Assembly: GCF_000619805.1 (NCBI RefSeq)
Contig: NZ_JHUV01000008.1
Span: 372,001-436,000 of the forward strand
From: Sulfurihydrogenibium subterraneum DSM 15120
GTDB taxonomy: Bacteria; Aquificota; Aquificia; Aquificales; Hydrogenothermaceae
DNA: 64,000 nt
Reading direction: 5' to 3'
The position numbers and the translations under genes are program-made. Numbering within the stretch: position 1 is the first letter of the stretch; every line of letters begins with the position of its first letter. Under the pieces are notes generated by a model that ran no database searches, was not told where the DNA came from, and saw nothing but the letters and a program-made list of their open reading frames with translations. This document shows, piece by piece, positions 6,857 to 12,817 of the stretch.

Positions 6857-7891
6857 ATGGATATAAAAGCTCAGCTTCTTAGTCTTAAAGAAGAAGTTTT
6901 AAAAGAGATGGAAGGGGTTAAAGACCCTTCTTCCTTAAATGATATTAGAGTAAAGTACTTAGGTAAAAAAGGAGTAATTACATCTATATTAAAAACCTTA
7001 GGTACTTTACCACCTGAAGAGAGAAAAGAGATAGGACAGCTTGCAAACTCTATAAAAGAGTTTTTAGAAGAAAAAATAAGAGAGTACGAAGAAAGTTTTA
7101 AAAAGAAAGCGTTAGAAGAATCTCTAAAAAAAGAAAAGATAGACGTATCTTTACCACCAAACTGGTTTGAAATTGGAAGTCCTCATCCTGTTTTACAAAC
7201 ACTAAAAGAGATTACAGATATATTTCTGTATATGGGATTTTCTGTTGAATCTGGACCCGAAGTTGAAGATGAAAACTATAACTTTACTATGTTAAACATA
7301 CCAGAAAATCATCCTGCAAGGGATATGCAGGACACTTTTTATTTAAACAACGGTATGATTCTTAGAACTCATACATCTCCCGTTCAGATAAGAACTATGT
7401 TAAAAAAGAAACCACCTATTGCCGTAGTTGCTCCTGGTAGAGTTTACAGAAAGGATTTAGACCCTACCCACTCTCCTATGTTCCACCAGATAGAAGGACT
7501 TGTAGTTGACAAAGATATTACCTTTAGGCAGTTAAAAGGTGTTTTAAAGATATTTTTAGAGTCAGTATTTGGTAAAAACATTCCTATAAGGTTTAGACCA
7601 AGCTACTTTCCATTTACAGAGCCTTCGGCTGAGGTTGACATTGGTTGTACCGTTTGTGGTGGGAAAGGTTGTAAAGTTTGTAAAAATACTGGATGGCTTG
7701 AAATACTTGGCTGTGGTATGGTAGACCCTAACGTATTTACCGCCTGTGGTATAGACCCTAACGTTTATTCAGGTTTTGCGTTTGGACTTGGAATAGAGAG
7801 AATCACTATGCTAAAGTATCAAATAACCGACATCAGACTACTTTTTAACAACGACATGAGGTTTAACTCTCAGTTTAAGGGGATAGGATGA
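6857..7891 (+). CDS. pheS: Phenylalanyl-tRNA synthetase alpha subunit
   Basis: A 344-residue class II catalytic subunit. An N-terminal coiled coil (about 1-90) that contacts tRNA is followed by the catalytic core: motif 2 region GRVYRKDLDPTHSPMFHQIEGL (about 195-216) and motif 3 GFAFGLGIERITML near the end. Four cysteines in CTVCGGKGCKVC form a compact cluster in the catalytic core, as seen in some thermophile PheS proteins. The start is 3 bases after the rplT stop and the end overlaps pheT by 4 bases, so translation is probably coupled. Confidence 0.97.
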   Translation: MDIKAQLLSLKEEVLKEMEGVKDPSSLNDIRVKYLGKKGVITSILKTLGTLPPEERKEIGQLANSIKEFLEEKIREYEESFKKKALEESLKKEKIDVSLPPNWFEIGSPHPVLQTLKEITDIFLYMGFSVESGPEVEDENYNFTMLNIPENHPARDMQDTFYLNNGMILRTHTSPVQIRTMLKKKPPIAVVAPGRVYRKDLDPTHSPMFHQIEGLVVDKDITFRQLKGVLKIFLESVFGKNIPIRFRPSYFPFTEPSAEVDIGCTVCGGKGCKVCKNTGWLEILGCGMVDPNVFTACGIDPNVYSGFAFGLGIERITMLKYQITDIRLLFNNDMRFNSQFKGIG

Positions 7892-10296
7892 AGATTCCTT
7901 ACTCGTGGATTAAAGAGTTTGTTGATATTGATATTCCAGCCGAAGAAGTTGCAGAGAAATTAAATCTTATAGGTATAGAAACAAACGTTTATAAGTTTGG
8001 TAATTACATTCCTAACATAATCACAGTAAAAGTCTTATCAGTAGAAAAACATCCAGAAAAAGACAAACTCTTTGTGTGTAAAGTAAGTAATGGACAAAAA
8101 GAGTATCAGGTTATAACAGGAGCTGACAACGTAAAAGCTGGTAATGTTGCAATTCTTGCAAAGGTAGGGGCTAACATCTTAGGTAAAGAGATAAAGCTTG
8201 TTAACTTTGGTTCTTTCACCTCAGAAGGAATGCTTTTATCCCTTGAAGAACTTGGGTTGGAAGAGAAATCTGACGGTTTATTTTTGTTAGATGAAGATAC
8301 ACCTGTTGGAGTAGATGCAAATGAGATTTTAGACCTTGGCAAAGATGATATTTTTGAAGTAGAAATCACTCCAAACAGAGGAGACGTTTTAAGCGTTAGA
8401 GGTTTAAGCAGGGAAATAGCAGCTGCATTTGGTTTAAAAAGAAAAGATTACTATCCACAACTTTCTACTGTAGGAGATTATGTAAAAATAAACATTCAAA
8501 CGGATAAAGTCTTAAGGTACAAAGCTACTGTTATAAAAGGTATAAAAATAAGACAATCTCCATTATCTATCAGATTAAAACTTATAAAATCTGGAATATC
8601 TGTTATAAACAACATCGTAGACATTACAAACTACATTCTTCTTCAAGAAGGTCAACCTCTCCACGCCTTTGATTTAGACAGAATTGAAGGTAAAATTACA
8701 GTTAGAAATGCTTTTGAAGGAGAAAAGATAATAACCTTAGATGGTCAAGAAAGAGTTTTAACATTTGGGGATATAGTTATAGCTGACGATAAAAAAGCTC
8801 TTGCAATTGCAGGAGTAATAGGTGGAGAAAACAGTAAAATAGATGAAAACACACAAAACATCCTTTTAGAAGCTGCTGTATTTGACCCTATAAGCGTAAG
8901 AAAAACAGCTAAAAGACTCTCTATCCTTACAGACTCTTCCTATAGGTTTGAAAGAGGTGTAGACGTAGAAAACTGCTCTACAGCTTCTGACAAGGCAATT
9001 TCTTTAATCCTTTCTTTATCAGGTGGAGAAGTTAGAGCTGTAAAAGATTTATACCTAAAACCTTATCAGCCTAAAACTATAGTCCTAAGACCATCTTTTA
9101 TAGAAAAAGTGTTAGGTAGCAAAATAGAGTCTGAAACTGTTGAAAAAATACTAACAGGGTTAGAGATACCAGTAGAAAAACATGGAGAAGATTTTAAAGT
9201 TTACATTCCTTCTTTTAGAACTTACGATTTAGAAAGGGAGATAGATTTAGTTGAAGAAGTTGCAAGGATTTACGGATACGATAACTTTAAAGAAGACTAT
9301 CTTAAAATCTTTACTAAAACCTTTAACAGACCTAAAGATTACGAATTTGACACTAAAGTACGCCAGTTTTTCTTAGACAACGGTTTTACAGAAGTTCTTA
9401 ACTACACCTTTACATCTCCAGATTTTTATACCACTTTATCTTTGCCAGTTCCTAAGATACAGATTTTAAACTACATTTTAAAATCTCAAAGTGTAATGAG
9501 AGACACTATTATAGTTAGCCTAATTCAAAACCAGATTGAAAACTTAAGATTTGGTAGAAAAGACCTCTCTATTTTTGAAATATCATCTACATTTTTTGAA
9601 GACCACGAATCAATAAACGTAGCAGGGCTTGTAAGTGGTAAATTGGTAGATGGTTATAACTATACTTCACCTGTAAGAAGCTTCAGGACAGACAGAGATT
9701 GGGATTTCTTATCGTTAAAAGGTGTTGTAAACAATCTTCTAAATTCCCTTGGTTTAGAGTACTCCATTTCAGATGAAAATTTACCTGTATTTTTACATCC
9801 TTACGAATCAGCTAATATAGTCATTAACGGCTTTATAGTTGGTTATGTTGGAAAAATCCATCCTCAAATTGCAGCAGAGTTTGAGATTCCAAAAAACACT
9901 TTTGTTTTTGAGTTAAAACTAAAGTACGTTCCAAGAGAGATTAAAGAAAATCCAGTAAAGGAAGGATACATCTATACCTACTATCTAAATAAAAGACCTG
10001 TTATTTATAAAGAGATTCCGAAACATCCACCTGTTAAAAGAGACCTTGCTTTTGTAGTAGACGTAAATGTAAAAGTTGGAAGTTTAATAGAAGATTTAAA
10101 GAACTCTTCAAATCTTATTAAGAATGTTAAACTTTTTGACGTTTACTTCTTATCTGAATGTCTTAAGAGTGTTGCGGTATCTGTTGAGTTTTTAAATCCT
10201 GATAAAAGCTTATCAGATGAAGAGGTAAATGTAGAAGTTGAAGAAATTTTAAACAAACTTAAATTAATTTATCCTGACATTGAATTAAGGAAGTAG
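7888..10296 (+). CDS. pheT: Phenylalanyl-tRNA synthetase beta subunit
   Basis: An 802-residue beta subunit of the alpha2-beta2 enzyme that charges tRNA-Phe. Domains in order: N-terminal OB-fold tRNA-binding domain (about 40-150), B3/B4 editing domain (about 200-370), B5 domain, a degenerate catalytic-like core and the C-terminal anticodon-binding domain with KHPPVKRDLAFVVD (about 705-720). The length is normal for a bacterial PheT. The ATGA overlap with pheS ties the two subunits together. Confidence 0.97.
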   Translation: MKIPYSWIKEFVDIDIPAEEVAEKLNLIGIETNVYKFGNYIPNIITVKVLSVEKHPEKDKLFVCKVSNGQKEYQVITGADNVKAGNVAILAKVGANILGKEIKLVNFGSFTSEGMLLSLEELGLEEKSDGLFLLDEDTPVGVDANEILDLGKDDIFEVEITPNRGDVLSVRGLSREIAAAFGLKRKDYYPQLSTVGDYVKINIQTDKVLRYKATVIKGIKIRQSPLSIRLKLIKSGISVINNIVDITNYILLQEGQPLHAFDLDRIEGKITVRNAFEGEKIITLDGQERVLTFGDIVIADDKKALAIAGVIGGENSKIDENTQNILLEAAVFDPISVRKTAKRLSILTDSSYRFERGVDVENCSTASDKAISLILSLSGGEVRAVKDLYLKPYQPKTIVLRPSFIEKVLGSKIESETVEKILTGLEIPVEKHGEDFKVYIPSFRTYDLEREIDLVEEVARIYGYDNFKEDYLKIFTKTFNRPKDYEFDTKVRQFFLDNGFTEVLNYTFTSPDFYTTLSLPVPKIQILNYILKSQSVMRDTIIVSLIQNQIENLRFGRKDLSIFEISSTFFEDHESINVAGLVSGKLVDGYNYTSPVRSFRTDRDWDFLSLKGVVNNLLNSLGLEYSISDENLPVFLHPYESANIVINGFIVGYVGKIHPQIAAEFEIPKNTFVFELKLKYVPREIKENPVKEGYIYTYYLNKRPVIYKEIPKHPPVKRDLAFVVDVNVKVGSLIEDLKNSSNLIKNVKLFDVYFLSECLKSVAVSVEFLNPDKSLSDEEVNVEVEEILNKLKLIYPDIELRK

Positions 10297-10348
10297 TCAG
10301 GAGCTGAAAAAGTGATAAAAGATTTTTATATAGATTTAGAAATAATTA

Positions 10349-10517
10349 AGGCTTTCCTGCGGGGTACGACTGGGATGGTTTAAAAATTTTCTGGGCTATA
10401 TACATCAGAAAGGGAGCTCGATATTCTGTAGATCCCTTGGGACTACAGTGGGAGCACCCACCTATTGGGGAAGTGCCCAAGAACAGAAGAACCATCCCAA
10501 CGGCTCTGTGGGAGCCT
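10349..10517 (+). ncRNA. ssrS: Structured RNA upstream of 5-formyl-THF cyclo-ligase, candidate 6S RNA
   Basis: The pheT-fau spacer is clearly richer in G+C than its surroundings and folds well by eye. An outer stem pairs AGGCU (10349-10353) with AGCCU (10513-10517). A perfect 10-bp stem pairs 10371-10380 with 10490-10499. Inside are a hairpin CTGTAG/CTACAG enclosing CCC/GGG (10425-10447), a hairpin on GGGAGCAC...GUGCCC (10450-10478) and a weaker TTTTCTG/CAGAAA hairpin. A T6 run (10525-10530) follows. The ssrS gene is known to precede the ygfA/fau gene in many bacteria, and the ~170-base length fits 6S. The branched interior is less typical of 6S; a cis-regulatory leader of fau is the main alternative. 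Confidence 0.6.
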
Positions 10518-10535
10518 AAAACACTTTTTTAGCCC

Positions 10536-10563
10536 TGACCTTCCAAGTTAGTTTGGGAGGTCA
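10536..10563 (+). promoter_or_regulatory. Hairpin hiding the ribosome-binding site of the 5-formyl-THF cyclo-ligase gene
   Basis: Bases 10536-10544 pair with 10555-10563 over 9 continuous positions (one G-U) around a 10-base loop. The 3' arm contains the whole GGGAGG ribosome-binding site, and the TTG start is 3 bases further on. As drawn, translation needs this stem opened, for example by heat, by an upstream ribosome or by alternative pairing with the preceding structured RNA. The pairing is seen in the sequence; a regulatory role is inference. Confidence 0.55.
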
Positions 10564-10565
10564 TA

Positions 10566-11126
10566 TTGAAAGTAGAACTTAGAAAGAAGCTTTTAGCAAA
10601 AAGGGAGATTTATCCTAACTGGCAAGAAGACTCTAACAAAATCGTCAACAATTTTCTGCAAAACTCCGACTTCTTAAATTTTAAAACATTCATGCTTTAT
10701 TATCCACACAGAAAAGAAGTAGATTCCGTACCTTTGATAAGAAAACTATTACAAGAGAAAAAAACCGTAGTTCTGCCAAAAGTATCAGGACAAGATATTA
10801 AACCAATTATTATCAAAGATTTAGACAATCTAATCGTAGGGTATGCTGGCATCAAAGAGCCTGTAGGTATCCAGATAGACACTCAAGATATAGACATAAT
10901 AGTTGTTCCTGCAGTTGCCTACGATAAAGAAGGATACAGAATTGGTTATGGAAAAGGCTATTACGACAGATTTTTACCAAAACTAAGAAAAGATACAGTA
11001 AAAGTAGGTTTTTGTTATGATTTTCAACTTTTAGAAAAACTGCCCCATGACTTGCACGATATACAAGTTGATTTAATTATCACACCAACACAAATTTTAA
11101 AAACAAAGAAGGAGGAAGTAAAATGA
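10566..11126 (+). CDS. fau: 5-formyltetrahydrofolate cyclo-ligase
   Basis: A 186-residue enzyme of the YgfA/FAU family that converts 5-formyl-THF to 5,10-methenyl-THF using ATP, returning a storage folate to the one-carbon pool. The family signature GYGKGYYDRFL lies at about residues 128-138, and the basic N-terminus K-x-x-L-R-K-K-L is present. It starts with TTG behind a GGGAGG site that is enclosed in a hairpin. The stop overlaps the start of RNase Y. FolD and PurH, which use the same cofactors, are encoded at about 50-52 kb. Confidence 0.92.
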   Translation: MKVELRKKLLAKREIYPNWQEDSNKIVNNFLQNSDFLNFKTFMLYYPHRKEVDSVPLIRKLLQEKKTVVLPKVSGQDIKPIIIKDLDNLIVGYAGIKEPVGIQIDTQDIDIIVVPAVAYDKEGYRIGYGKGYYDRFLPKLRKDTVKVGFCYDFQLLEKLPHDLHDIQVDLIITPTQILKTKKEEVK

Positions 11127-12817
11127 ATGAAGTGATAGTAGGATTATTATCTGCAGTTTTTGCTGGTGGAGCTGGATTTACTGCTTGTAAAGTAATGGTA
11201 GAAAAAAAGTTAAAAGAAAAAGAGCAAGAGTATAGCAAAGTATTAAGCAGAAAAGAAGAGTTAGAAAAGCTTGCAAAAGAGGAAGCTGAAAGGATAAAAA
11301 AGGAAGCTGAAAAAGAAGCTGAAAGGGTCATAAAAGAAGCAGAAAAAGAGGCAAAGATAAGAGCGTCAGAAATAGAGAGAGAAGCATTAAAACTAAAAGA
11401 ACAACAAGAGTTTATTATTGAAAAAGAGCTGTTAAAAAGAAAGCAGGAACTTGAAAACGAGCTTAGACAAAAAAGAGAGGAACTTCAAAACTTAGAAAAA
11501 CAACTTTTAATGAAAGAATCTCAGTTAGAGAAAAGACTTGCAAGATTAGAACATAGAGAAGAAGAAATAGAAAAAAGAGCTACAGAAATTGCTAAATTAG
11601 AAACAGAGATAAAGGCTTTAGAGAAACAGTTAAAAGAAAAAGAAGAAAAAGTCAAATCTGCTGAAGAACAGTACATCTTAGAGCTTCAAAGAATTGCAAG
11701 CATGACAAAAGAAGAAGCAAAAACAGAACTTATGAGAAAAGTAGAAGAAGAAGCAAAGTTAGAAGCTGCTAAACTTATGAGAGAAATAGAAGAAGAGGCA
11801 AGGAAAAATGCAGAAAAAGAAGCAAAATGGAATCTTGTTACTGCAATTCAAAGACTTGCTCCAGAAGCAACTACTACGTATACAGTTTCAGTTGTTGACC
11901 TTCCAAGCAATGACATCAAAGGTAGAATAATAGGAAGGGAAGGTAGAAACATAAGAGCTTTTGAAATGGCAACAGGTGTAGATTTAATAATAGATGATAC
12001 ACCAGACATAGTTACAATATCTTCCTTTGACCCGTTAAGAAGAGAGATTGCAAAAACAGCTTTAGAGAGACTTATAGCTGATGGTAGAATACATCCTGGA
12101 AGGATAGAAGAGGTTGTTGAAAAAGTAAAAGAAGAAATGGATCAGCATATTAGAAAGTTAGGAGAAGAAACATGTCTTGAACTTGGTTTTACCGATGTAC
12201 ATCCTGAGCTTTACTACTACATTGGAAAGTTAAACTACAGAACATCTTATACCCAAAATGTTTTATTACACACTAAAGAAGTTGCACACCTTGCAGGAAT
12301 GATGGCAGCAATGCTTGGTTTAGATGAAAAGATGGCAAGAAGAGGAGGGCTTATGCACGATATAGGTAAAGCTATATCCCACGAAGTAGGAGGAGCTCAC
12401 TCTAAGGTCGGAGCTGAAATAGCAAGAAGATACGGAGAGCCAGACTACGTTATAAATGCAATTCTTTACCACCACGGAGATGAACCTGCAAGGTATCCTG
12501 AAGCTGTTTTAGTAGCAGCTGCAGACGCACTTTCAGCAGCAAGACCAGGAGCAAGAAGAGAGGTTCTACAATCTTACATAAACAGACTTGAAAAAATAGA
12601 AGCTATTGTTAACTCTTTTGAAAATGTAGAAAAGTCTTTTGCAATACAGGCAGGTAGGGAAGTAAGGGTCATAGTTAACGCAGAAAAACTCTCAGACGAG
12701 GAAGCTTACCTTTTAACAAAAGAAATAGCAAAAAGAATAGAAAAAGAAGTAGAATTCCCTGGACAGATAAAAGTTGTCACAATAAGAGAATCAAGGTTTG
12801 TAGAATTAGCAAAGTAG
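11123..12817 (+). CDS. rny: Ribonuclease Y
   Basis: A 564-residue membrane-anchored endoribonuclease that starts bulk mRNA decay. Order: one N-terminal membrane segment (about 4-25, with Gly/Ala-rich stretch), a long Glu/Lys-rich coiled coil (about 30-240), a KH domain around GRIIGREGRNIRAFE (about 265-280) and an HD domain with the metal-binding HDIGKA (about 412-417). The length is slightly above the 520 typical of Bacillus, owing to the coiled coil. AGGAGG lies before the ATG, which overlaps the fau stop as ATGA. Confidence 0.96.
   Translation: MNEVIVGLLSAVFAGGAGFTACKVMVEKKLKEKEQEYSKVLSRKEELEKLAKEEAERIKKEAEKEAERVIKEAEKEAKIRASEIEREALKLKEQQEFIIEKELLKRKQELENELRQKREELQNLEKQLLMKESQLEKRLARLEHREEEIEKRATEIAKLETEIKALEKQLKEKEEKVKSAEEQYILELQRIASMTKEEAKTELMRKVEEEAKLEAAKLMREIEEEARKNAEKEAKWNLVTAIQRLAPEATTTYTVSVVDLPSNDIKGRIIGREGRNIRAFEMATGVDLIIDDTPDIVTISSFDPLRREIAKTALERLIADGRIHPGRIEEVVEKVKEEMDQHIRKLGEETCLELGFTDVHPELYYYIGKLNYRTSYTQNVLLHTKEVAHLAGMMAAMLGLDEKMARRGGLMHDIGKAISHEVGGAHSKVGAEIARRYGEPDYVINAILYHHGDEPARYPEAVLVAAADALSAARPGARREVLQSYINRLEKIEAIVNSFENVEKSFAIQAGREVRVIVNAEKLSDEEAYLLTKEIAKRIEKEVEFPGQIKVVTIRESRFVELAK

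Follow-up and report, generated by a model that had tools for sequence, protein, structure and literature searches.

Two competing, conserved RNA helices flank the 6S RNA gene of Sulfurihydrogenibium subterraneum and may control translation of fau and rny

The window analyzed here is a stretch of 64,000 nucleotides from the genome of Sulfurihydrogenibium subterraneum DSM 15120. It contains a 6S RNA gene whose neighbors, as assigned through NCBIfam equivalogs, are pheS, pheT, fau and rny. The features needed to describe this part of the locus are the following:

7888–10296, forward strand: pheT (TIGR00472, 751.4 bits); its 3′ end contains the first bases of an element termed box A below
10351–10518, forward strand: the 6S RNA gene (ssrS)
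10387–10400, forward strand: 5′ strand of the central bubble of the 6S RNA, TTTTCTGGGCTATA, the likely template for product RNA (pRNA)
10566–11126, forward strand: fau, encoding 5-formyltetrahydrofolate cyclo-ligase, with a TTG start (TIGR02727, 169.8 bits against a cut-off of 84.9)
11123–12817, forward strand: rny, encoding RNase Y (TIGR03319, 628.7 bits); its start overlaps the fau stop by 4 bases

The nearest named relative was Sulfurihydrogenibium sp. ARK-13, whose Fau protein shows 72% identity.

A first-pass annotation of the DNA had pointed to a strongly structured RNA at 10349–10517, for which it offered either a diverged 6S RNA or an unrecognized leader of the folate gene, and had suggested comparing it with the Rfam 6S families. 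This comparison, run with lax filters, returned RF00013 at 49.5 bits (E = 5.3e-9, model positions 1–187 of 187), above the gathering score of 46.4 bits. The default fast filters and a whole-genome search missed the locus, which is an effect of the filters and not a sign of absence. Together with the conserved synteny and the covariation among 31 sequences described below, the match means that the 6S reading was correct: the structured RNA is almost certainly 6S RNA, the known regulator of RNA polymerase, and its identity is settled as far as a sequence allows, as an RNA of known kind. The qualifier "diverged" did not hold up, at least not in any strong sense, because the match is full-length and exceeds the gathering score. 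No credible match to any Rfam family other than 6S was found up to E = 10, and the same search returned no riboswitch family.

RF00013 matches were obtained in 32 of 61 relatives and in 66 of the 136 genomes of a phylum sample. At every locus examined (30/30) the 6S gene was located between pheT and fau, with rny nearly always next, and this pheT–6S–fau–rny order is kept in both Hydrogenothermaceae and Aquificaceae. At the Aquifex aeolicus 6S locus (our G065, presumably strain VF5), the RF00013 match spans 1219725–1219886 and occupies the same position relative to pheT and fau as in the window. The A. aeolicus 6S RNA is tabulated at 1219679–1219903 and presented as experimentally verified in PMC4227106, so that the shared pheT/fau position makes the gene in the window an ortholog of an experimentally proven 6S RNA. 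A 6S RNA in Sulfurihydrogenibium was predicted already by Lechner et al. in 2014 (PMC4227106); this part of the finding is therefore ordinary.

The fold of the RNA was also consistent with this assignment. Its predicted energy was −72.6 kcal/mol, as compared to −50.9 ± 4.2 kcal/mol for 200 dinucleotide shuffles (z = −5.16), none of which was as stable, and this bore out the strong structure noticed at first; the contrast in G+C content between the RNA and its flanks was real, too. Both stems that had been described are present in the sequence, namely, a perfect 10-bp stem (TGGGATGGTT at 10371–10380 with AACCATCCCA at 10490–10499) and an outer closing stem (CCTGCGGGG.. / ..GTGGGAG). Folding the single sequence to minimum energy also gives the two or three internal hairpins, but the one on the 3′ side was lost in the consensus of 31 aligned sequences, which is the usual 6S rod with closing stem, central bubble and terminal arm. 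Alignment of the spacer from relatives, likewise proposed at the outset, showed compensatory changes altering both sides in 21 of the 31 consensus pairs.

A hairpin in the 5′ strand, around TTCTGGGCTATA, showed modest to weak coevolution (p = 0.007), and the pairing of the rod scored better (p = 0.0007); a branched junction was thus rejected as the conserved fold. The conserved fold being the 6S rod, the riboswitch-type junction once suspected here is unsupported, and a riboswitch, whether a leader for folate, tetrahydrofolate or some other ligand, was discarded along with it.

In the central bubble, TTCTGGGCTAT is invariant in all 35 Hydrogenothermaceae loci and presumably serves as the pRNA template; the pRNAs of this family have been proposed to start with A (PMC4227106). 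In one genus (g9; loci L014, 1501–1671, and L029, 1501–1684, both on the reverse strand), the 5′ strand of the bubble forms a perfect hairpin of at least 8 bp around this putative template (GTTAGC..GCTAAC), and the spacer upstream of the 6S gene is almost twice as long.

Ending the structured region at 10517 leaves out conserved structured elements that flank the 6S gene on both sides. These elements, and two further candidates between pheT and the 6S RNA, are the following:

10289–10314, forward strand: box A, GGAAG-TAG-TCAGGAGCTGAAAAAGTG (as RNA, GGAAG-UAG-UCAGGAGCUGAAAAAGUG), the 5′ strand of a long-range helix termed P0; it overlaps the pheT stop codon (10294–10296) and is complementary to box B
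10312–10383, forward strand: putative short open frame of 23 codons that starts with GTG where box A ends and stops within the 6S RNA
10329–10335, forward strand: TATAGAT, which may be the −10 element of a promoter for 6S RNA; it lies downstream of box A and upstream of the 6S gene
10522–10544, forward strand: box B, CACTTTTTTAGCCCTGA-C-CTTCC (as RNA, CACUUUUUUAGCCCUGA-C-CUUCC), the 3′ strand of P0; its end is the 5′ arm of the hairpin that follows
10536–10563, forward strand: perfect hairpin TGACCTTCC(AA)..GGGAGGTCA sequestering the fau Shine-Dalgarno (SD) sequence (−15.8 kcal/mol at 37 °C, −7.9 kcal/mol at 65 °C)
10555–10561, forward strand: the fau SD sequence, GGGAGGT, 4–5 nt upstream of the TTG start

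Box A and box B lie on opposite sides of the 6S gene, box A being about 230 nt upstream, and the helix they form directly extends the 6S closing stem. Each of the 35 Hydrogenothermaceae loci tested, which represent nine genera, has P0, with 15–25 base pairs. Cognate pairs of box A and box B averaged −29.1 kcal/mol, versus −19.8 kcal/mol for cross-genus pairs; the genus permutation gave p = 5e-5, the floor of the test (at most 1 in 20,000 permutations), a value that overstates independence because the genera are related and perhaps three to five helix types are truly independent. The signal persisted when the shared CCTTCC core was left out (−15.2 vs −10.6 kcal/mol, p = 5e-5), and control segments nearby were negative or marginal (p = 0.93 and 0.72, and 0.05 for box A against the fau coding start). 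The pair after GGAAGG is U-A in 9 cases, C-G in 14 and U-G in 2, and the outer (second) half of the helix is swapped wholesale between genera, as CGCGG/CCGCG, CAGG.GCUGA/UCAGC.CCUG or GCACUGA/UCAGUGC, each version matched by its partner.

In Aquificaceae, the 60 nt upstream show some complementarity and no clear box A; since this complementarity is irregular, we do not claim an equivalent there. In Sulfurihydrogenibium, the TCAGG of box A can also pair with a CCTGA inside the end of pheT (10274–10301), possibly forming a third competing hairpin.

Downstream of the 6S gene, the fau SD is the 3′ arm of the perfect stem at 10536–10563. Among the 49 genes of the window with an assignable SD, it was the least accessible, with values of 0.0004 at 37 °C (median 0.47) and 0.004 at 65 °C (median 0.71). 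The hairpin, CCUUCC..GGGAGG, is present in 35/35 Hydrogenothermaceae loci (arm swap test, p = 0.003), and one with other sequence, CUUCCCCUCCU..AGGAGGCGGAAG, occurs in most Aquificaceae, including A. aeolicus. In A. aeolicus (L064) and other Aquificaceae, this differing SD hairpin just upstream of fau, CCTTCCCCTCCT..AGGAGGCGGAAG, is very stable and has no recognizable upstream partner. Given the lack of a clear box A in that family, the SD hairpin must serve some use even without a switch.

In the model, the fau SD hairpin was still folded at 65–70 °C, which speaks against simple melting. A role as intrinsic terminator was rejected: no U-run follows the hairpin and a terminator scan found none on the forward strand.

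The CUUCC at the end of box B is part of both P0 and the SD hairpin, so that the two helices exclude each other. The SD thus lies in a stable conserved hairpin, and a conserved antisequester helix competes with that hairpin for the same bases, which is the arrangement of a two-state SD-sequestering switch. The idea of a folate-gene leader, as put forward in the first-pass annotation, was in this respect partly apt: it suits the SD hairpin and its competing helix, outside 10349–10517, and not the RNA inside those coordinates.

When each transcript was folded, the mean SD accessibility with box A present was 0.33 at 37 °C and 0.45 at 65 °C; it fell to 0.00 and 0.01 without box A, and to 0.00 and 0.02 with box A scrambled. 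For the window RNA, P0 was predicted to form first (probability 0.95–0.99), before transcription reaches the SD, and the final states differed by 1.0 kcal/mol at 65 °C and by 0.5 kcal/mol at 70 °C. For Sulfurihydrogenibium the predicted equilibrium favors the closed hairpin, in the window somewhat (SD accessibility 0.01 at 37 °C and 0.12 at 65 °C).

The competing pair of stems probably decides whether fau is translated. The explanation we favor, by a modest measure, is a two-state element built around a 6S gene that is transcribed as part of, or within, a pheT–6S–fau–rny unit: transcripts carrying box A would be open and transcripts lacking it closed. In the open state, on a transcript reading through from pheT, box A would pair with box B once the 6S RNA has been passed; P0 would then prolong the 6S closing stem and remove the 5′ arm of the SD hairpin, leaving the fau ribosome-binding site usable. 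In the closed state, on transcripts that either start from a promoter immediately upstream of the 6S gene or are cleaved at that point, CCUUCC in box B would fold back on the SD, and fau and the overlapping rny would stay untranslated. The ribosome-binding site of fau would, in effect, sense whether the end of pheT is present on the transcript. Control of fau probably extends to RNase Y, because the start of rny overlaps the fau stop by 4 bases (ATGA, 11123–11126) and the two genes are probably translationally coupled.

The closed state calls for RNAs beginning between box A and the 6S gene. TATA[ATG]AT occurs upstream of the 6S gene in 22 of 35 genomes, against 6.0 expected, for a motif chosen post hoc in AT-rich sequence, and it suggests a candidate 6S promoter in this interval; a consensus scan for sigma-70 promoters between box A and the 6S gene returned none. 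With such a promoter, 6S RNA could be made in bulk without Fau and RNase Y being made from the read-through RNA.

A more far-reaching and, to us, more tentative formulation is that the 6S gene forms the loop of a conserved origin-sensing switch, in which fau and rny would be translated from transcripts that include the pheT end and silenced on those that start at 6S. If this were true, synthesis of 6S RNA and expression of the folate enzyme and RNase Y would be mutually exclusive.

The main rival is that P0 is chiefly a processing stalk, closing a 6S precursor within the pheT–fau transcript, from which a double-strand nuclease of the RNase III type would excise the 6S RNA as happens in pre-rRNA; the SD hairpin would then be what remains folded at the 5′ end of the fau mRNA once this has been released. 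That P0 continues the 6S closing stem by 15–25 pairs, and that its sequence changes freely as long as pairing is kept, is what a stalk would show. A stalk, on the other hand, could do without a strand that also serves the SD hairpin. Almost every locus nonetheless retains CCUUCC, whereas the remainder of P0 is replaced, and the sharing with the invariant SD accounts for this. We therefore consider this explanation rather unlikely as the main one. It is nonetheless compatible with the switch. Cutting would also leave fau closed, and control of fau would follow in either case.

We regard as improbable a form of translation attenuation, in which ribosomes finishing pheT, or translating a short frame, would occlude box A and thereby prevent P0, with closure of the fau SD as the result. 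Box A does overlap or directly follow the pheT stop, and a short frame beginning just after box A and running into the 6S RNA was found in 28 of 35 genomes, as compared to 4.4 expected from shuffles; the short frame hints that ribosomes may take part. However, a conserved leader peptide had to be rejected, as the frame stays open but its residues are not conserved, and its phase relative to the 6S RNA changes. Besides, in most genera GGAAGG and the start codon are some 14 nt apart, too far for a good SD, and in only one (L026) of the seven genomes that failed the short-frame test does an open frame start further downstream.

Least probable of all is an ordinary 6S RNA next to a weakly translated fau, with the SD hairpin acting as a thermosensor or simply marking a ribosome-binding site of low expression, and the box A complementarity functionless: the Aquificaceae keep the hairpin without box A, and single-sequence energy models are uncertain for thermophiles, but box A and box B coevolve across nine genera with negative controls, and the modeled hairpin stays folded at 65–70 °C.

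In terms of known systems, the 6S RNA of the window resembles the A. aeolicus 6S RNA and the Hydrogenothermaceae candidates of PMC4227106 in length, in its rod with a central bubble and in its pheT–fau location, and it shares with them the conserved GGGAGC / GCACCCACCU and CTGGGC motifs. The 6S section and related passages of the main text of that paper make no mention of the flanking helix P0 or of the fau SD hairpin. We found neither described in the literature searched; as important Aquifex 6S papers fell outside this search, the two elements are likely, though not proven, to be new.

The window also resembles the ssrS–ygfA operon of Escherichia coli and other proteobacteria, where 6S RNA is co-transcribed with the gene for 5-formyltetrahydrofolate cyclo-ligase (PMC2848244), but it differs in that pheT precedes and rny follows, and in that box A and box B border the 6S gene. 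The 6S gene adjoins the cyclo-ligase gene in many bacterial phyla, for a functional reason stated to be unknown (PMC2848244; the synteny is also reported in PMC9130861). The two-state element may help explain why 6S and fau are so often adjacent. If it operates as proposed, it would supply a concrete and testable reason in one deep-branching lineage, namely, that Fau and RNase Y are not made in excess when 6S RNA is transcribed in bulk. In addition, a regulatory RNA switch would here clearly enclose the gene of a noncoding RNA.

As in riboswitches and RNA thermometers with SD-sequestering hairpins, an alternative helix competes here with the SD hairpin; unlike in those systems, no ligand-binding domain was found, and about 230 nt, including the 6S RNA, separate the hairpin from the competing strand upstream. 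A closer parallel in one respect is the lysozyme gene e of phage T4, where the start point of the transcript determines whether one and the same ribosome-binding site is accessible. In T4 the long transcript is the closed one, whereas in the window it is the one predicted to open, with an entire noncoding RNA separating the two strands of the helix.
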